Origin: Synergistaceae bacterium
GTDB taxonomy: Bacteria > Synergistota > Synergistia > Synergistales > Aminobacteriaceae
Length of the DNA: 33,162 nt
NCBI GenBank assembly: GCA_031280635.1
Contig: JAITGK010000127.1
Span: forward strand, 1-33,162
Direction of reading: 5' to 3'
Position 1 is the stretch's first letter; each line of letters begins with the position of its first letter. Below are positions 6,189 to 30,256 of this stretch, piece by piece. The translations under genes and the position numbers were made by a program. The notes beneath the pieces were generated by a model, which ran no database searches, was not told the origin of the DNA, and worked only from the letters and a program-made list of their open reading frames with translations.

Positions 6189-7577
6189 CTAGAAATAAAG
6201 CTCGTACTCTTGAGGCGCGGGAGCGTTGTAGACGTAGTCGGCCTCAGCCCTCTTGGCCGAGATCCAAAGGTCGAACAGTTCCTTGGGGAAAACCGGTTCC
6301 AGATACTGATGGTCTTTTTCCAAGCCATCCATGACGGCGTGTAGGTTGAGGGGGAACTTCCCAGCCCCGCCGGAGCTCGCGTCGCCGAACTTCAGCGCCA
6401 CGGGGTCGCGCCCGCGCAGAATCCCGTCGCACCCGGCCAAGGTCATTGCCGCCAACATGTAGTGGACGTTGGCTGAGGCGTCCCCCGTGCGGTACTCCAT
6501 GCGCACCTCTTTTTTGCCCAGGTAGCCGGGAATCCGGACGGCGGCGTTGCGAGAGGCCTTGGCGAAGCTGGCGCTGACGGGGGCCTCATAGCCCGATATC
6601 AGCCGTCGGTAGCTGTTGGTGCTGGGGTTGGTGAAGGCCAGCAGACTTCCCGTAAGGCTGTGTTCCAAGAGCCCCGCGATGTAGGAAAGCCCCTGGCGGG
6701 AAAGCCCGTAAAGCTCGTCGCCGATAAAAATAGACGCGCCGCTTTTTTCGAGAAACTGATGGACGTGCATTCCACTGCCGGCCATTTTGTAAAGGGGCTT
6801 GGGCATAAACGTGACCTTCAGCCCCATCTTGTCGGCCACTGAGCGGATGATCCACTTGGCCAGACAGACGTTGTCCGCCGCCTTCTGAATGTTCATGAAG
6901 TTTAGCTCGATTTCGAGCTGGGACGCCCCCACCTCGTGGTGGTGGTACTTGACTGGGATGCCAATTTCCTCCATGAGGGACACCGTCCGATTACGAAAGT
7001 CCATGTAGCGGTCGTCCGGCGGAAGGCGGTGGTATCCCTGATGGGGGGCGAAACGCGGGTTGGTGTCGAAACCGTGTCCCAGGCCCTCGGCCGAGCCCAC
7101 CGAGTAAAAAGAGCCCGTCACGTCACACCCATACTCCACGGAGTTAAAAATGTAGAACTCCAGCTCCACCAAGGCCCGCATGTCGTCGGCGATGTTTTTC
7201 TCCCGGAGGAAACCGCGGGTTTTCTTGACGATGTTCCGGGGATACTGGTCGAAGAGGTCGCCGCTGGCGGTGCGCACGTCCCCAAGCGCGTGAAGGATCC
7301 GAAAGCCGCCCCGTTTCTCGATAAAGGCGGTCTCCTCGTCCGGCACAATGATCATGTCGGACTCCGTAACCTTGGCGTAGCCGTAGTTGGACGCGTCAAA
7401 GCCGATGCCCTTCTTGAAGAGCTCTTTTGTGGCGTAGGACTTGGGCAGGGTCACGCTGCGCAGGCTTCCGTTCAGGTCCAGGGCTATCAGGTTCAAGAAA
7501 TCGAAAGCGCCGTCTCCAAGGTATTTTTCGAGAACCATTTCGCCCACCGCGCCAAACTCCGCATCGCGCGTTTCCAT
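6189..7577 (-). CDS. glnA: Glutamine synthetase family protein (type I fold)
   Basis: A 462-residue protein of the glutamine synthetase family, which joins ammonia to glutamate using ATP. Motifs seen: VELEFYIF (the E-x-E metal pair), HHEVGASQLEIEL (the two further Glu ligands), FMPKPLYKMAGSGMHVHQ, NSYRRL, RIPGY, RTGDASANVHYMLAA and the family-typical C-terminal YELYF. In the substrate loop NGSGMH is expected in classical enzymes but here it reads AGSGMH, so the Asn is Ala. I recall this variant from some anaerobe enzymes, but it leaves open a gamma-glutamyl ligase with another amine substrate. I chose the ATG at 7577 because AGGAGG is 9 nt upstream; a TTG at 7583 is too close. It is first in an operon with the RpiR regulator. 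Confidence 0.85.
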   Translation of the reverse strand: METRDAEFGAVGEMVLEKYLGDGAFDFLNLIALDLNGSLRSVTLPKSYATKELFKKGIGFDASNYGYAKVTESDMIIVPDEETAFIEKRGGFRILHALGDVRTASGDLFDQYPRNIVKKTRGFLREKNIADDMRALVELEFYIFNSVEYGCDVTGSFYSVGSAEGLGHGFDTNPRFAPHQGYHRLPPDDRYMDFRNRTVSLMEEIGIPVKYHHHEVGASQLEIELNFMNIQKAADNVCLAKWIIRSVADKMGLKVTFMPKPLYKMAGSGMHVHQFLEKSGASIFIGDELYGLSRQGLSYIAGLLEHSLTGSLLAFTNPSTNSYRRLISGYEAPVSASFAKASRNAAVRIPGYLGKKEVRMEYRTGDASANVHYMLAAMTLAGCDGILRGRDPVALKFGDASSGGAGKFPLNLHAVMDGLEKDHQYLEPVFPKELFDLWISAKRAEADYVYNAPAPQEYELYF

Positions 7578-7608
7578 TGTCAATCGCCTCCTGAAATTTA
7601 TTTCCCGC

Positions 7609-7638
7609 GACGTTTCACGTCCCTATGACGTTCCACGT
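7609..7638. promoter_or_regulatory. Two 12-bp direct repeats in the glnA leader, possible regulator site
   Basis: GACGTTTCACGT (7609-7620) and GACGTTCCACGT (7627-7638) are 18 bp apart start to start and each has ACGT at both ends. They lie 32-61 nt before the glnA start, downstream of the predicted promoter, where a bound repressor could act as a roadblock. The co-transcribed RpiR protein is an obvious candidate, by inference. Confidence 0.4.
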
Positions 7639-7687
7639 TGAAGATAAATTTTCACGAATCAAGAACAATGAAATTTTATTTTCATAA

Positions 7688-7716
7688 AGCTTACATTTTC
7701 TTAACGCCCATGTCAA
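7688..7716 (-). promoter_or_regulatory. Probable sigma-70-type promoter of glnA
   Basis: On the minus strand a perfect TTGACA (7716-7711) is followed after exactly 17 bp by TAAGCT (7693-7688), preceded by TG. The -10 is weak but the -35 and spacing are ideal. It predicts a leader of about 100 nt carrying the direct repeats. Confidence 0.5.
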
Positions 7717-7772
7717 GGAGGTTTTAACTTCTGAATCCCACATTCGACATATCAGCTTAAAAAAACGCCGAT

Positions 7773-7843
7773 CCAATGGGGTTCTTAGGGGTCCACGACT
7801 CCTTGGGGTCCACGACCCCTTGGGGTCCACGGCCTCAGCCGTG
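7773..7843. repeat. 17-bp tandem repeat within a partial hairpin-type repeat element
   Basis: GGGGTCCACGAC starts at 7788 and 7805, with a variant ending GGC at 7822; the period is exactly 17. The left part, AATGGGGTTCTTAGGGGT, is the inverted end of the repeat at 5158-5222. The last unit runs into a hairpin CACGGC-CTCA-GCCGTG (7828-7843). It looks like a decayed and locally expanded copy of that element. Confidence 0.6.
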
Positions 7844-7931
7844 AGTCCCGCCGCCAGCGCTGAGGGAAAACGCGCCGCCGCGGGTGGTAACCGTGAAAGT
7901 CCAGGCTTGACAGTAAGAATGGTTAGCTAAA

Positions 7932-8022
7932 GGCGTTGGCTCTTTTCCGCGCAAAGTTTTTGCCGTTTATATCCGGCTTTCGCTCTCTTATCTCCGCGCT
8001 TGATTCCACAACCCGCTATGAG
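7932..8022 (+). repeat. Interspersed repeat element, copy B
   Basis: Begins GCGTTGGCTCTTTTCCGCGC and ends with the shared right end CAACCCGCTATG. The middle keeps AAAGTTTTTGCCGTTTATAT and TCTCTTATCTCCGCGC. Same element as copies A, C, D, F and G. It lies in the long gene-free stretch between glnA and the secreted-protein cluster. Confidence 0.75.
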
Positions 8023-8112
8023 ATATTCTAATATGAAACATTCTGAAAGCGAGGATTGCTTATCGCGAAAATACTAAAAGTCTATTGGCAGCGGCAAATT
8101 TTTCGCAAAAAA

Positions 8113-8438
8113 AAGTACGGTAAACCAGGGTTTTCCGTACATGTCCCGGATTATACATAAAACTATTCTCATGTAAAAGAGCCATAAGGTTCATATTTTT
8201 AAGTTCATTGGAATCATATTGTATAGTCTTTAATAATCAAAAATTTCAAATTCTCAAGACCCAACTTCCACCCGGTGAAACCCTATCTTCAAAGCTAAAA
8301 GTCATTGTTACAACTGATTGAATTTCACATTCAAGTCCCGCGTGTTTCCCTTACTCCGAAGGGACGCTCAGAAAGCGGGGTGATCTGTCGGAAAAAGCGT
8401 CAGCGAGGATGTACGGAAAACCCTGGTTTACCGTACTT
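8113..8438. mobile_element. 326-bp element bounded by perfect 30-bp inverted repeats
   Basis: The 30 bases at 8113-8142 are the exact reverse complement of 8409-8438. Each end is itself nearly palindromic (GTACGGTAAACC / GGTTTTCCGTAC). The 266 bp between are AT-richer than the surroundings and hold no gene I can support. CAAAAA-like sequence flanks both sides, so a target duplication cannot be told from a plain A-run. The structure fits a miniature transposable element or a pair of inverted REP-like palindromes; no known family was recognised. Confidence 0.6.
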
Positions 8439-8701
8439 CAAAAATTAGCTTTAAGCCTTATGGCGGTCAAGTTTACAAACATAGCGATCGGCGTTTTTAC
8501 GTCGATTTCTAATACAAGGACAGTTGCGTGAGAGGGGGTGTTTGACTTCCAGGTTTACGCGCGATAACCCAGAGGGCGGGACATGAGGCGCAATCCGCTG
8601 AAAGCCAACAAGGGAAGTCGACGAGAAGGAGAGCGGTCGAAAGATTGAGCTGGGCGGAAGATAGGAATTTTCCGCGTGATTTCCCAAAAGGAGGGAAAAA
8701 G
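8439..8701. other. Upstream region of the first secreted charged protein; start of a duplicated unit
   Basis: No gene seen. From about 8521 the sequence is repeated further right: AGTTGCGTGAG at 8522 recurs at 9003, CCAGGTTTA at 8549 recurs at 9033, and 22 identical bases at 8585-8606 recur at 9239-9260. The untranslated part is thus conserved between the two copies as well as the signal peptides are. Confidence 0.6.
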
Positions 8702-8986
8702 ATGAAAAAAGTAGTTGGTTTTTGTGTTCTTTCGGCGATGGTGGTGAATTTTGTCGCGGCAGGGACGGCGCAGGCGAGTTCGTCCGTTTTCCGCGCGGAA
8801 GAAAAAAAGTCCTTGGCTCGGACTGGAAGCCCTCAGCCGCTTTCCTCTCACGCGGAGAGAGAGCGCCGCGAGCGTCTTGAGCGCGAGCGCCAGCAGCGTC
8901 TTGAGCGCGAGCGCCGTGAGCGTCTTGAGCGCGAGCGCCGTGAGCGTGAGCGTCGTGAACAGCAACAGCACGGACGTCGCCGTTAA
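8702..8986 (+). CDS. Small secreted Arg/Glu-rich charged-helix protein, copy 1
   Basis: A 94-residue protein of unknown function. It has a signal peptide (about 1-25, MKKVVGFCVLSAMVVNFVAA, cleavage near TAQA) and a short mature N-terminus SSSVFRAEEKKSL. The tail is almost only Arg, Glu, Leu and Gln. In the tail the 8-residue unit RLERERQQ/RLERERRE is repeated three times (24-bp units in the DNA). Such alternating E/R sequence forms a stable single alpha-helix or coiled coil. The protein should end up outside the cytoplasmic membrane. The ATG at 8702 has AGGAGG 8 nt upstream. Two related genes follow on the same strand; the gene at 9325 is a direct duplicate. I do not recognise a described family. 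Confidence 0.7.
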   Translation: MKKVVGFCVLSAMVVNFVAAGTAQASSSVFRAEEKKSLARTGSPQPLSSHAERERRERLERERQQRLERERRERLERERRERERREQQQHGRRR

Positions 8987-9062
8987 CGCTCATCGCGAGG
9001 ATAGTTGCGTGAGGGGGATGTTTTGAGGATTCCCAGGTTTAGAAAACGCTAATCAAACACTT

Positions 9063-9120
9063 TGGGGCCTCGCCCCAAGCCCTAACTTAGGGGTCACAGA
9101 CCCCTAAGAACCTCATTTAT
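9063..9120. repeat. Second interspersed repeat type, copy 2
   Basis: GGGGCCTCGCCCC, then the 10-bp stem CTTAGGGGTC/GACCCCTAAG with loop ACA, then AACCTCATTTAT. Same part order as the copy at 5158-5222. Confidence 0.65.
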
Positions 9121-9210
9121 AGTGGTTGGCTCTTTTCCACGCGAAGTTTTTTCCACTTATACTAGGTTTTTAGCCTCTTATTTCCGCGTATGATTACGCA
9201 AACCGCCATA
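9121..9210 (+). repeat. Interspersed repeat element, copy C
   Basis: Runs from GTGGTTGGCTCTTTTCCACGC to GATTACGCAAACCGCCATA, in the same orientation as copies B and G. It sits inside the duplicated unit that carries secreted-protein copy 2. Confidence 0.75.
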
Positions 9211-9324
9211 ATCAGCGCTTTCTCAGATGGCGGGAAACGAGGCGCAATCCGCTGAAAGCCGACAATGGAAGCGGGTGGACGGGAAGGAGAGCGGTCGGAA
9301 GACTGAAGTGGGCGGAAGAAAAAG

Positions 9325-9681
9325 ATGAAAAAAGTGATTGGTTTTTGTGTTCTTTCGGCGATGATGATGAATTTTGTCGCGGCAGGGACGGCGCGCGCGG
9401 GCTCGTCTGTTTTCCGCGCGGAAGAAAAAAAGTCCTTGGTTCAGACTTCAGAAGAAGGCCGTCAGCGGCTTTCCTCTCGCGCGGAGAGGAAGGAGAGGGA
9501 GAAGGAGAGAGAGCGCGCGCGCGTCGCGCAGAGGGAGAAAGAGGAGGAAGAGAAGGAGTGGGGCGTACCCCGCTGTCAGCTTCCTGAGTTCCGCAAACGC
9601 CAGCAGCGTAAGAAAGAACGTAAAGAACGTCTTGAGCGCGAAAAACTTCGACTTGAGCGTGAAATAGGAAGTGGCAATTGA
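9325..9681 (+). CDS. Small secreted charged protein, copy 2 (shifted C-terminus)
   Basis: A 118-residue paralogue of the 94-residue protein at 8702-8986. The signal peptide and mature start are nearly identical (MKKVIGFCVLSAMMMNFVAA, then SSVFRAEEKKSL). After that the body diverges into a Lys/Arg/Glu-rich stretch with an interrupting WGVPRCQLPEF. The last codons are out of frame with copy 1. The old ending still exists in another frame just past the stop, where ATTGAGCGCGAGCGCC leads to the shared CGCCGTTAACG. Compared with copy 1, about 35 bp holding the AGGAGG site are missing upstream of the ATG, leaving only GGAAG, so translation may be weak. Function unknown; it may be a decaying copy. 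Confidence 0.6.
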   Translation: MKKVIGFCVLSAMMMNFVAAGTARAGSSVFRAEEKKSLVQTSEEGRQRLSSRAERKEREKERERARVAQREKEEEEKEWGVPRCQLPEFRKRQQRKKERKERLEREKLRLEREIGSGN

Positions 9682-9947
9682 GCGCGAGCGCCGCCGTTAA
9701 CGTTCGTTGCGTGGACAGTTTACGCGCTTTGGGGAATGACGGCGTCATAATTGGGTTGCGTAATCACGCGCGGAAAAAATAAGAGTAAAAAGCTGATATG
9801 AACGGCAAAAACTTCGCGCGAAAAAGAGTCAAGGGCTCTAATATCGAAAACTTCTTTCCCCTTAGGCGTTAGACGCGCGCGTAACAGCGTAACAAGCGTC
9901 GGGAAGTTGGTTGTGGTCATGGGACTGTCGAGAGAGGAACACGCGCG
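9682..9947. other. Spacer between copies 2 and 3 with repeat copy D
   Basis: No gene. Starts with a remnant of the duplicated unit (CGCCGTTAACG, then a TTGCGTGGACAG fragment), followed by interspersed element copy D (9745-9841) and about 105 bp leading to the third gene. Confidence 0.55.
9745..9841 (-). repeat. Interspersed repeat element, copy D
   Basis: Opposite orientation to B, C and G. On the plus strand it reads GGGTTGCGTAATCACGCGCGG at one end and AGAGTC-AAG-GGCTCT, the variant hairpin, at the other. Confidence 0.75.
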
Positions 9948-10520
9948 ATGAAAAAGGTGACAGGAAGTTGTGTTTTGGCGGTTATGGGGTTGAATTTCGT
10001 CTTGATGGACATGGCGTGGGCGTTGCCTATTTCCTCTCAAACGGAGGCGCGAAAACTAGCCGCTCCTTCGGGTCGGGAGCGTGAGAGAGAGGAAAAGGAA
10101 CGTCGCGGGCAAGGCCAACAGCGAGAAGAAGACCGCAAGCCGCCGCGGAGACCGCAAGAGCGCAAGCCAAATCCAGATAGGCCGCAACCGCCCAGACCAA
10201 AACCAGATAGGCCGCAGGGGTATAGGCCAAATCCGGATAGACCGCAACCGCCTAGACCAAAACCAGACAGGCCGCGACCGCCTAGACCAAGGCCAGATAC
10301 ACCGGAGGAAGACCACAAACGGCAGCAACTGATGGAACAGCACCGCAAGCGGCAACAACAAGTACAAGAAGCTAACAAGCGGCGGGAAGAGGAGGAGGCG
10401 GCGAAAGCGCGAGTCCAACAGGAAGAGAAACAAGTTGAACGGGAAGAAAAACGCCGTGATTACGTGGATTCCACTTTAGACTTGCTCAAATCGATTGTTG
10501 AAGCTGTGGAACAGCGGTGA
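9948..10520 (+). CDS. Secreted Pro-rich repeat and charged-helix protein, copy 3
   Basis: A 190-residue secreted protein related at its start to the genes at 8702 and 9325 (MKKVTGSCVLAVMGLNFVLM, cleavage near AWA). After a basic linker comes a proline-rich section (about 66-112) of 10-residue units alternating PNPDRPQPPR, PKPDRPQGYR and PKPDRPRPPR, encoded by 30-bp DNA repeats. From about 118 a long charged helix rich in Gln, Glu, Lys and Arg follows, ending with DYVDSTLDLLKSIVEAVEQ, an amphipathic helix. The Pro-rich part would form a stiff rod and the rest a helical stalk, as in envelope-spanning or wall-binding proteins; that is inference. The start has a moderate GAGAGG site about 11 nt upstream. 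The Synerg-CTERM gene follows after 20 nt and is probably co-transcribed. Confidence 0.7.
   Translation: MKKVTGSCVLAVMGLNFVLMDMAWALPISSQTEARKLAAPSGREREREEKERRGQGQQREEDRKPPRRPQERKPNPDRPQPPRPKPDRPQGYRPNPDRPQPPRPKPDRPRPPRPRPDTPEEDHKRQQLMEQHRKRQQQVQEANKRREEEEAAKARVQQEEKQVEREEKRRDYVDSTLDLLKSIVEAVEQR
10145..10311 (+). repeat. 30-bp coding tandem repeats (Pro-rich decapeptides)
   Basis: Four to five units encoding variants of P-x-P-D-R-P-x-x-x-R. A 60-bp higher order is visible: the pair PNPDRPQPPR plus PKPDRPQGYR is followed by PNPDRPQPPR plus PKPDRPRPPR. Such arrays can gain or lose units by slippage. Confidence 0.75.
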
Positions 10521-10540
10521 ACCGTTAAGGAGGTAGTATC

Positions 10541-11398
10541 ATGAGAAAGTTTTTTGTGTTAGCTCTTTTGGCGGCAATATGGATCAGCGTCGGCGCGGCG
10601 ATGTCCGAGGCGGCGACTCATTCCCCACAGGATGGCGCGGAACTCGAGAATCTCTTTTATGGGGGTACTCTGGGAGATGGAGACGTAATCGAGCTGATCT
10701 CGGACGGCGACTACAAACTTTCCAACTCGCTTGAAATTTCTGGAATAAGCTTGGAGATTATAGGAAACAACGCTACCATCGAGCCCGAGCCCAGCTCTTA
10801 CAGTGTTTACGACGCGTTTCTTGTGGATGGCGGCGCTTTGCGTGTCGAAAACGTCATTATCATGAACTACGATCCCGCTTATGGATTTAGTATAACGAAT
10901 GGCGCTAGCGTTGAGCTGCGGGACGTTACGCTTGACAATTGCGTCGCGGGTTTCTATGTCGAAGATTCTTCTCTTTCCTTGCTTGGCGGCACGACCATCG
11001 GAGCGTCTAGCACGGCAATCTGGTACGTGGGCGACAGCGACATTTCTATAGAGCGGGACGTCGAGCTGAGGGGCAAGTTGATTATCGATAACCCAGAACT
11101 ATCGACAGCGGAGTCTATTGCCCAAAAAATCGGCGAGTGGTTCTCTCCAGCCCCCATCCCTGAGGCCTTCGCTAATGGCGAATACTCTGTCTTGGATTAT
11201 GCCAACAGCATCGACTCTGGCGAAATCGCGACCGCTATCGCTGACTATAACAACGCTTTGACAGGTGACGCGCCTGGTGGATATGGCGATAATGATGATA
11301 GAGATGGCGGCGGCGGTTGCGACGCGGGTTTAGGAGCTTTAGGGTTACTGGCGGCTCCACCGATTTTTTTAAGACGGAAAAAAGCGAGCGGCAATTGA
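10541..11398 (+). CDS. Secreted beta-helix-like protein with Synerg-CTERM sorting tail
   Basis: A 285-residue exported protein. Residues 1-25 are a signal peptide (MRKFFVLALLAAIWISVGAA, cleavage near SEA). From about 40 to 185 short alternating hydrophobic strands (LEISGISLEIIGNNATIEPE, VENVIIMNY, VELRDVTLDNC, LSLLGGTTIG, ISIERDVELRGKLII) suggest a right-handed parallel beta-helix. The C-terminus is GGGGCDAGLGALGLLAAP, a few hydrophobic residues, then RRKK. This is the Synerg-CTERM pattern known only from Synergistetes and thought to be processed at the envelope at or near the Cys. AAGGAGG lies 7 nt before the ATG. It follows the Pro-rich protein by 20 nt, so they probably act together at the cell surface. 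Ligand or partner unknown. Confidence 0.75.
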   Translation: MRKFFVLALLAAIWISVGAAMSEAATHSPQDGAELENLFYGGTLGDGDVIELISDGDYKLSNSLEISGISLEIIGNNATIEPEPSSYSVYDAFLVDGGALRVENVIIMNYDPAYGFSITNGASVELRDVTLDNCVAGFYVEDSSLSLLGGTTIGASSTAIWYVGDSDISIERDVELRGKLIIDNPELSTAESIAQKIGEWFSPAPIPEAFANGEYSVLDYANSIDSGEIATAIADYNNALTGDAPGGYGDNDDRDGGGGCDAGLGALGLLAAPPIFLRRKKASGN

Positions 11399-11431
11399 CA
11401 TACTCCCACGGCTATAGCCGTTGGCTTTCCT
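11393..11431. mobile_element. IS200/IS605-like terminal fragment
   Basis: AATTGACATACTCCCACGGC followed by TATAGCCGTTGGCTTTC resembles the hairpin-bearing ends of IS200/IS605-family elements as I remember them (TGACATACTCCCACGGCTAAAGCCGTGGG). No transposase gene is near, so it is a solo end or remnant. It overlaps the stop codon of the Synerg-CTERM gene. Confidence 0.45.
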
Positions 11432-11458
11432 AATCGCGATGTCGTAAAGCGGTTGACA

Positions 11459-11480
11459 AGGGGGGCTTCAGCCCCTCTTT
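11459..11480 (+). terminator. Possible terminator downstream of the Synerg-CTERM gene
   Basis: Stem GGGGCT (11462-11467) with AGCCCC (11470-11475), extended by flanking AG/CT pairs, then TCTTT. It lies 64 nt after the stop. The loop is only 2 nt and the T-run short, so strength is uncertain. Confidence 0.4.
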
Positions 11481-11482
11481 GC

Positions 11483-11530
11483 GTGTGCCCAGCATGGGCG
11501 ATAACTTGGAGGTGAAAGTCCTCTACAGGC
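11483..11530 (+). mobile_element. 5' stub of a group II intron
   Basis: GTGTG at 11483 fits the GUGYG start of group II introns. It is followed by CCCAGCATGGGCG and then GGAGGTGAAAGTCC at about 11508-11521, motifs typical of the first domain of bacterial group II introns as I remember them. The intron breaks off after about 48 bp, where repeat copy E begins; no reverse transcriptase gene or domain V is present. Confidence 0.5.
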
Positions 11531-11532
11531 TT

Positions 11533-11579
11533 TAGCGCCGTTGGCTCTTTTTCGCGCGTGATCGCGCGACCCGCTATAG
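11533..11579 (+). repeat. Interspersed repeat element, copy E (internally deleted)
   Basis: Only about 47 bp: GCCGTTGGCTCTTTTTCGCG is joined directly to CGTGATCGCGCGACCCGCTATA. The left and right ends match the full element but the middle (about 45 bp) is missing. The junction lies at CGCGC, which occurs on both sides of the missing part in full copies. Confidence 0.7.
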
Positions 11580-11765
11580 TCCTTCTTTCCCTTCCTGGTC
11601 ATATCTTGTCATATTTTGATTTTGATTTCAGGCGTCTCAGTTGTCTCTCCGTCATCCCCAAACTTGCCGCCCCCCCATTGCTCGCGCTACCCGACAAAAC
11701 TCTCTCTATCACCCTCACGCGCTTCGTCTCGTCTCCGCTCAACGTCACCCGTTCCTGTCTCACGC

Positions 11766-11811
11766 GGACATTTTCACAGACGAGTTATGAGAGGACATTA
11801 TCACAGACAAA
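11766..11811. repeat. Two direct repeats, 27 bp apart, resembling an IS end
   Basis: GGACATTTTCACAGACGAG (11766-11784) and GGACATTATCACAGACAAA (11793-11811) share 16 of 19 bases. The pair, separated by TTATGAGA and followed by TGACACGTC, resembles terminal sequence of some DDE-type insertion sequences from memory. No transposase is present. Confidence 0.4.
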
Positions 11812-11829
11812 TGACACGTCATTTAGGTA

Positions 11830-11858
11830 TTGACAATTGCGCGGGTGATTGCTAATCT
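11830..11858 (+). promoter_or_regulatory. Promoter of the hrcA-grpE-dnaK-dnaJ operon
   Basis: A perfect TTGACA (11830-11835) is followed after 17 bp by TAATCT (11853-11858). Transcription would start about 11865, placing the CIRCE operator in the leader, as is usual for this operon. Confidence 0.6.
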
Positions 11859-11876
11859 ACCCGTAGGTTAAATGCG

Positions 11877-11903
11877 TTAGCACTCACTTATATAGATTGC
11901 TAA
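11877..11903. promoter_or_regulatory. CIRCE operator (HrcA-binding site)
   Basis: TTAGCACTC-N9-GATTGCTAA matches the CIRCE consensus TTAGCACTC-N9-GAGTGCTAA with one mismatch in the right arm. It lies 57 nt before hrcA. HrcA bound here would keep the chaperone operon low until heat or unfolded protein draws GroE away from it. A lone GATTGCTAA also occurs at 11847-11855 inside the promoter spacer. Confidence 0.93.
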
Positions 11904-11930
11904 TATCGACCTTGTAGGAGGTCTAAGCGC

Positions 11931-11966
11931 ATGACGACAAAACGAGGCGGCGTTGGCTTATGCTGA
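11931..11966 (+). CDS. Possible leader peptide overlapping the hrcA start
   Basis: An 11-codon frame, MTTKRGGVGLC, starts 9 nt after a perfect AGGAGG (11916-11921). Its stop at 11964-11966 overlaps the first codons of hrcA, whose ATG is at 11960. The hrcA frame itself has no start codon nearer to this ribosome-binding site. The layout suggests translational coupling. It could also be a chance frame, with ribosomes reaching the hrcA ATG directly. Confidence 0.4.
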   Translation: MTTKRGGVGLC

Positions 11967-12979
11967 CGGAGAGGCAGCTGGGGATCGTGCTGGCGGTGGT
12001 CTATGAGTACATCAAAACGGGCGAGCCCGCTGGATCGCGGACGATCACTAAGAAGTACATCAAGGGTCTGAGTCCCGCGACGATACGCAACGAGATGGCC
12101 GACCTGGAGGAGATGGGGTATTTCTATCAACCTCACACCTCGGCGGGACGCCTGCCGACGGCGAAATCCTACCGGGTCTACGTGGACTCCGTGACCTCGC
12201 GGGAGCGCCTCCGCCCGCGCGAGACCATCGAGTGGCAGAGGGAGATTGAGAATCGCCGCAATGGCATCGAGGACCTTCTGCATTACGTGACGCACATGCT
12301 GTCCCGCCTCACGAACTACGTGGGGGTGGCGGCCGTGGCGGGCCTGGACGCCACGGAAATCCAGCACATCGACCTTATGCCCTTGGGCGGGTCGCACATC
12401 CTGGCGTTGATCGTCCTGCGGGGAGGGTTGGTCCACCATTCCCAGTTCCCGCTTCCCTGCGAGGTTGAGCCTGCCGCCATTGAGGAGCTGACGCGGCGGA
12501 TCAACACTGTGGCCTCAGGGCGCGCCTGGAGTGAGGTTCGGGACGTTCTGTACAGTTTTGTCTTGAATGGGCTGGAAGACGTGGAGGAAGCTTGCCGCAT
12601 GGCCTTGCGGGAGCTGGATAACTTCCTCACTATGCAGAACTACCGCTTTTTCAGCAGCGGGGCGCAGTACATCCTAAACCTACCCCATTTCCAGACCCTG
12701 GGGCGGCTCCAAGCCGTGCTGTTGCTCTTGGAGCAGGAGAAGCCCTTAGCGAGGATGATCGAAAACTGCCGCCTGAGCGAGGCCTTGAAGGTCAGCATTG
12801 GCGAGGACAACGACGCCGAGGGCGTGGAGGGCATGGGCGACAACGCGATGATCCTGATACCCGCCCAGGCCAGACAACAAAAGGCCGTCTTGGGCCTGAT
12901 CGGTCCTTTGCGCATGGACTACGAGCGCTCGATAAACATCTTGGAAGCCATGGTGGATGCTTTGAGCAAGAAGCCGTGA
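11960..12979 (+). CDS. hrcA: Heat-inducible transcription repressor HrcA
   Basis: A 339-residue repressor of class I heat-shock genes; it binds CIRCE. Seen: an N-terminal winged-helix (about 1-70) starting MLTERQLGIVLAVVYEYIKT with GLSPATIRNEMADLEEMGYF and HTSAGRLPTAKSYRVYVD, both family hallmarks. The C-terminal GAF-like effector and dimer domain includes LPLGGSHILALIVLRGG-type sequence near 153 and ends GLIGPLRMDYERSINILEAMV. Length is normal (about 340). The ATG at 11960 has only a weak GAGG upstream; the strong site belongs to an overlapping short leader frame. First structural gene of the chaperone operon and regulated by its own product through the CIRCE just upstream. Confidence 0.96.
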   Translation: MLTERQLGIVLAVVYEYIKTGEPAGSRTITKKYIKGLSPATIRNEMADLEEMGYFYQPHTSAGRLPTAKSYRVYVDSVTSRERLRPRETIEWQREIENRRNGIEDLLHYVTHMLSRLTNYVGVAAVAGLDATEIQHIDLMPLGGSHILALIVLRGGLVHHSQFPLPCEVEPAAIEELTRRINTVASGRAWSEVRDVLYSFVLNGLEDVEEACRMALRELDNFLTMQNYRFFSSGAQYILNLPHFQTLGRLQAVLLLLEQEKPLARMIENCRLSEALKVSIGEDNDAEGVEGMGDNAMILIPAQARQQKAVLGLIGPLRMDYERSINILEAMVDALSKKP

Positions 12980-26578: not shown

Positions 26579-26690
26579 AGCCGTTGGTTCTTTTATGAAC
26601 AAAACACATAATATAGTGGGTTGCGTAATCACGCGCGGAAATAAGAGACCAAAAACCTGATATACACGGCAAAAACTTTCGGCTTTAGGG
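26577..26690. repeat. Interspersed repeat element, copy F (rearranged)
   Basis: It begins inside the URO-D gene stop with AGAGCCGTTGGTTCTTTT, the hairpin end of the element. A core in the opposite orientation follows (26613-26680: TATAGTGGGTTGCGTAATCA to AAAAACTTTCG), whose own hairpin end is degenerate. The first hairpin plus T-run can end the URO-D transcript. Confidence 0.65.
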
Positions 26691-30157: not shown

Positions 30158-30256
30158 GCTCTGAAGCCGTTGGTTCTTTTTCGCGCAAAGTTTTTGCCGT
30201 TTATAGCCAGGCTTTTGGCTTGTATTTCCACGCGCGATTATACAAACCGCTCTAAG
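30158..30256 (+). repeat. Interspersed repeat element, copy G
   Basis: Runs from AAGCCGTTGGTTCTTTTTCGC to GCGCGATTATACAAACCGCTC. ACCGCTCT occurs on both outer sides (about 30155 and 30245), like the flanking repeat of copy A. It separates the DivIC-like gene from the DUF362 operon. Confidence 0.75.

Follow-up and report, generated by a model that had tools for sequence, protein, structure and literature searches.

A family of exported, charged low-complexity proteins upstream of hrcA in a Synergistaceae bacterium, with signs of duplication and damage

Results

Organization of the locus

The window, i.e. the whole stretch of 33,162 nucleotides that was analyzed (contig JAITGK010000127.1 of assembly GCA_031280635.1), contains a row of four genes on the plus strand, which we call g1 to g4 (Table 1). 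They are preceded by a gene on the minus strand, whose translation reads like a glutamine synthetase, and followed by hrcA-grpE-dnaK-dnaJ, which we recognized from their translations and which start downstream of a CIRCE-like sequence. The original prediction, made from the DNA alone, described g1, g2 and g3 as three genes with a common type of signal peptide. Open reading frames are indeed present at the predicted starts, and their N-termini are alike beyond chance; by eye the signal peptides follow the pattern MKKVxGxCVLxxM..NFV and carry an A-x-A cleavage site. The predicted spacing of 20 nt between the stop of g3 and the ATG of g4 is also correct, and a strong SD sequence (AAGGAGGT) precedes g4. 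Probably g4 is cotranscribed with g3; the connection between the two would be a shared transcript at most. An Rfam search of positions 7500-12100 gave no match. Folding of the g1 and g2 leaders resulted in z values of -1.6 and -1.2, which give no sign of a structured-RNA leader.

Table 1. Positions of genes, leaders and repeats in the window.
Feature	Position	Strand	Description
Glutamine synthetase-like gene	6189-7583	-	
g1 leader	8517-8701	+	8561-8661 homologous to 9215-9319; 8517-8557 recurs at 8998-9041
g1	8702-8986	+	94 aa; signal peptide and RLERERRE repeats
Tandem repeat in g1	8861-8947		24-nt unit, 3.6 copies
g2 leader	8998-9324	+	second tandem-duplication unit; palindromic stretch and MITE at 9042-9223
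Palindromic stretch	9046-9110		GGGGCCTCGCCCC and TTAGGGGTCACAGACCCCTAA
MITE copy, g1-g2 gap	9116-9212	+	
g2	9325-9681	+	118 aa; signal peptide and Lys/Glu/Arg-rich body; 3' end probably frameshifted
MITE copy, g2-g3 gap	9753-9841	-	
g3	9948-10520	+	190 aa; signal peptide, Pro-rich decapeptides, predicted C-terminal charged helix
Tandem repeat in g3	10167-10299		30-nt unit, 4.4 copies
g4	10541-11398	+	285 aa; predicted secreted, possibly beta-helix-like body, Synerg-CTERM tail
hrcA-grpE-dnaK-dnaJ	from 11960		downstream of CIRCE-like sequence
Further MITE copies	7935-8019, 30169-30250	+	
Further MITE copies	2147-2237, 26612-26678	-	

Paralogy and tandem duplication

In a 130-nt region that includes the signal peptide (8695-8824/9318-9447), g1 and g2 are 92% identical on the DNA level. 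The N-termini of g1 and g3 align with a score of 66 over 40 residues, compared with a maximum of 42 in a null of 128 unrelated signal-peptide-like N-termini. Judged by sequence, g1, g2 and g3 are true paralogues, of which g3 is the more diverged. The first segment of the g1 leader is repeated directly 3' of the g1 stop; g1 and g2 are therefore two tandem-duplication units, and the leader of the second contains a palindromic stretch and a MITE, which interrupt it. This arrangement of repeats shows that a unit of leader plus gene was duplicated in tandem to give g1 and g2. The genes g1 and g3 also contain tandem repeats in their coding regions (Table 1); since their units are near-exact, they suggest a variation of the unit number by slippage.

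Among the matches listed, the genome of the window holds four copies of the family, namely g1, g2, g3 and a copy on contig C145. The conserved N-terminal part consists of the signal peptide plus, in g1, g2, the C145 copy and a relative from another genome (G023, see below), an x-V/I-F segment behind it. A further candidate (C18:31574) was rejected as a family copy; its likeness is confined to about 40 bp where an unrelated secreted protein begins.

Divergence and damaged copies

The comparison of g1 and g2 revealed 8 nonsynonymous and 2 synonymous codon differences in 42 codons. The resulting values (dN 0.107, dS 0.125) are close to neutral, and pairs that include the C145 copy have a dN/dS of about 0.4 to 1.1; all these estimates cover 42-52 codons and have a wide error. 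The g2 leader is devoid of 35 bp, which in g1 contain the SD sequence AAGGAGGG; the same segment is present, slightly altered, upstream of the C145 copy. Past the stop of g2 a g1-like ending (ERERRR-TAA) can be read in another frame, and the 3' end of g2 has probably lost its original frame by a frameshift. In the C145 copy a g1/g2-like start is joined to a g3-like middle (GQxQQREEDRKPP) with a frameshift between the two, and an IS terminus is located about 56 bp upstream of the ATG. Damage is seen in two of the four copies, g2 and C145. Single-base frameshifts may be assembly errors, as the draft genome consists of 187 contigs and has an estimated contamination of 8%. A leader is also found next to the same IS terminus at C108:189-282; because this terminus is multi-copy, we did not accept C108 and C145 as one locus and kept them separate.

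Charge pattern and predicted helices

The mature bodies of g1 to g3 are rich in Arg, Lys and Glu and have a net charge of +8 to +10. In the body of g1, opposite charges are paired at i/i+4 (z 4.2), and none of 5000 shuffles reached this value. The pairing is weak in g3 and in the G023 protein (z 1.5 each) and absent in g2 (z -0.4); of the three proteins, g1 alone shows a charge register like that of a single alpha-helix. Single alpha-helix (SAH) domains have a high content of Arg, Glu and Lys (PMC5347031, PMC5812594). The RLERERRE repeat of g1, with its pairing of opposite charges far above shuffles, is similar to these domains; g2, in contrast, has no such register, and g1 to g3 differ further in being exported bacterial proteins, with a helix in g3 that is only predicted. 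This helix occupies the C-terminus of g3 (residues 119-189, about 70 residues) in a single-sequence model, in which the Pro-rich part has no structure; the model assigns it a high confidence, which for a lone charged helix is no proof of a helix. The description of the three proteins as charged rods hence applies to g1 and, in g3, to the C-terminal helix, but not to g2.

None of the three proteins has a Pfam or NCBIfam match above cut-off, in agreement with the predicted absence of a described family. They share with the acid-shock protein Asr (NF033636) that they are small, exported, basic and repetitive; the scores, however, are 20 bits for g3 and 13.5 bits for g2, with no match for g1, while the cut-off is 50.

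The Synerg-CTERM protein g4

The tail of g4 (residues 256-281) matches all 27 positions of the Synerg-CTERM model TIGR04564 with 22.9 bits, a narrow margin over the cut-off of 22.5; in the genome search it scored 27.5 bits. The predicted Synerg-CTERM gene behind g3 is in this sense confirmed. The tail has the Gly-rich/Cys, hydrophobic and basic parts of this signal, a layout similar to that of GlyGly-CTERM/rhombosortase tags (PMC3237569) and MYXO-CTERM/myxosortase tags (PMC11980579). The N-terminus (MRKFFVLALLAAIWISVGAAMSEA) resembles by eye a signal peptide. The body, on the other hand, is without relatives, and g4 resembles proteins from other genomes mainly by its tail; g1 to g3 have no tail of this kind. 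The body had been predicted to be beta-helix-like. It matches PF13229 with 19.9 bits (E 6e-4), below the gathering score of 25.9, and a single-sequence model (pLDDT 53) places stacked strands at residues 48-182 with low confidence. Among the closest PDB shapes beta-helix lyases predominate; no match has an E below 0.001. Together, these values at best hint at the proposed fold.

Elsewhere in the same genome only one other place exceeds the Synerg-CTERM cut-off (C77:10537-10614, L136; 31.6 bits); six further matches are all below it.

Distribution in Synergistota

We searched 188 Synergistota genomes, a set that covers about half of the GTDB species, with a profile and detected the family in its own genome and in G023, a member of a second genus, plus one weak match that was taken as chance. 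The signal-peptide family has, accordingly, a relative in one of the 187 other genomes; narrower searches agree. The G023 sequence was itself a row in the profile, and its membership therefore rests on pairwise searches (E 3e-5) and on the empirical null: its alignment scores with g1 and g2 are 62 and 65, compared with at most 42. The G023 protein has a His-rich end. The gene behind it encodes, by its translation, a product that resembles an ABC-transporter binding protein, and no Synerg-CTERM gene was found near it. No family match was obtained in a genome from the same genus as the window (G001, 86% complete). A comparison of the 8 kb upstream of hrcA in two near relatives (L042 and L044; HrcA 94% and 91% identical) revealed other genes in place of the g1-g4 block; the likeness of the DNA ends about 130 bp upstream of hrcA. 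The layout of g3 is kept by no match examined. These data support the claim that related exported charged proteins are restricted to a lineage; the search for homologues with conserved signal peptide and gene order, whose absence had been named as a refutation in the original prediction, came out mostly against the proposed envelope system.

Several weaker signals were discarded. The weak profile match mentioned above, in G067 (E 8.5e-4, positions 24-62), has a stop inside and was treated as chance. Weaker matches of g2 in other genomes were taken as composition matches, most of which miss the signal peptide; reading the ORFs at L007, L009 and L018 revealed no such protein. A scan of named genomes with g2, which may omit the genome of the window, found no relative.

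Discussion

The genes g1 to g3 probably encode lineage-restricted, Sec-exported low-complexity polyampholyte paralogues in turnover, with g4 as an independent sorted protein. The family gained a copy by tandem duplication, as in the leader-plus-gene unit of g1 and g2, and the repeat numbers would vary through slippage. Loss of copies is visible at sequence level in the frameshifted C145 copy, which has an IS end near its start, and in g2, from which the SD region and probably the original 3' frame are missing. Where the products are intact, they may act in the periplasm or envelope as cationic proteins, disordered or helical, and may bind anionic polymers of the surface or buffer stress, similar to Asr-type proteins. 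The g4 product would be a surface protein with a predicted sorting via its tail; its partnership with the charged proteins is unsupported. The conserved feature appears to be export and not the body or the neighbourhood. Against a family in turnover count the signal peptide, whose recognizable form in all four copies and in another genus argues that export is selected, and the good SD sequence and non-random helix charge register of g1.

The original prediction went further and proposed a working lineage-specific envelope system, in which g1 to g3 act as stiff helices or rods together with the sorted g4. The common signal peptides, the charge register of g1, the long helix in the g3 model and the short gap between g3 and g4 are in favor of such a system, which we nevertheless regard as quite unlikely: in no second genome of those searched do relatives of g1 to g3 lie beside a Synerg-CTERM gene, g2 has no charge register, copies are damaged and the divergence is nearly neutral. 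With the block also absent upstream of hrcA in the near relatives and two of four copies damaged, what stands of the prediction is a set of related, exported, charged and lineage-restricted proteins and not a four-part system. Also quite unlikely is a more specific version, namely a new Synergistaceae family of exported single-alpha-helix proteins with a surface rod length varied by slippage and with g3 functionally coupled to g4.

It is unlikely, too, that the genes are plain junk, that is chance open frames in GC-rich repeat DNA from which no functional protein is made. The near-neutral divergence of g1 and g2, the frameshifts in g2 and the C145 copy, the lost SD region of g2 and the MITEs in both gaps are what such DNA would exhibit; yet the signal peptide is recognizable across the paralogues and G023, an SD sequence precedes g1, and the amino acid likeness of g1, g3 and the G023 protein lies in one frame. 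Very unlikely is a function as Asr-like acid-shock or stress proteins, i.e. exported, basic, disordered protectants. Size, export, net charge and the weak NF033636 matches agree with it, but these scores are far under the cut-off and may be explained by composition alone. The preferred reading of exported paralogues in turnover describes a gene family that is duplicated and broken inside one genome while its export signal is still recognizable; it is an example of low-complexity secreted orphan genes in a genome where insertion sequences and MITEs abound. Provided that its product is made, g1 would be a candidate for a bacterial single alpha-helix that is exported.

Dispersed repeats

The MITE-like element has a length of about 95 bp, the consensus TATAGCCGTTGGCTC...AACCCGCTATAA and short terminal inverted repeats; its first bases are reminiscent of Correia elements. 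Among the matches listed, the own genome contains 34-47 scored and about 335-348 candidate copies. The genome from the same genus has one partial copy, and 24 other relatives have none. The MITE upstream of g2 includes a sigma-70-like match (9134-9163), which we discarded as too weak.

The IS terminus (TTAGAGTATCTATC...; e.g. C145:5118-5231 and C108:4-117, L003 and L147) is absent from the window. Among the matches listed it has 40 scored places (79 candidates), most of which lie at the ends of contigs, and is probably behind many of the assembly breaks. The palindromic stretch after g1 (Table 1) is possibly another dispersed repeat.
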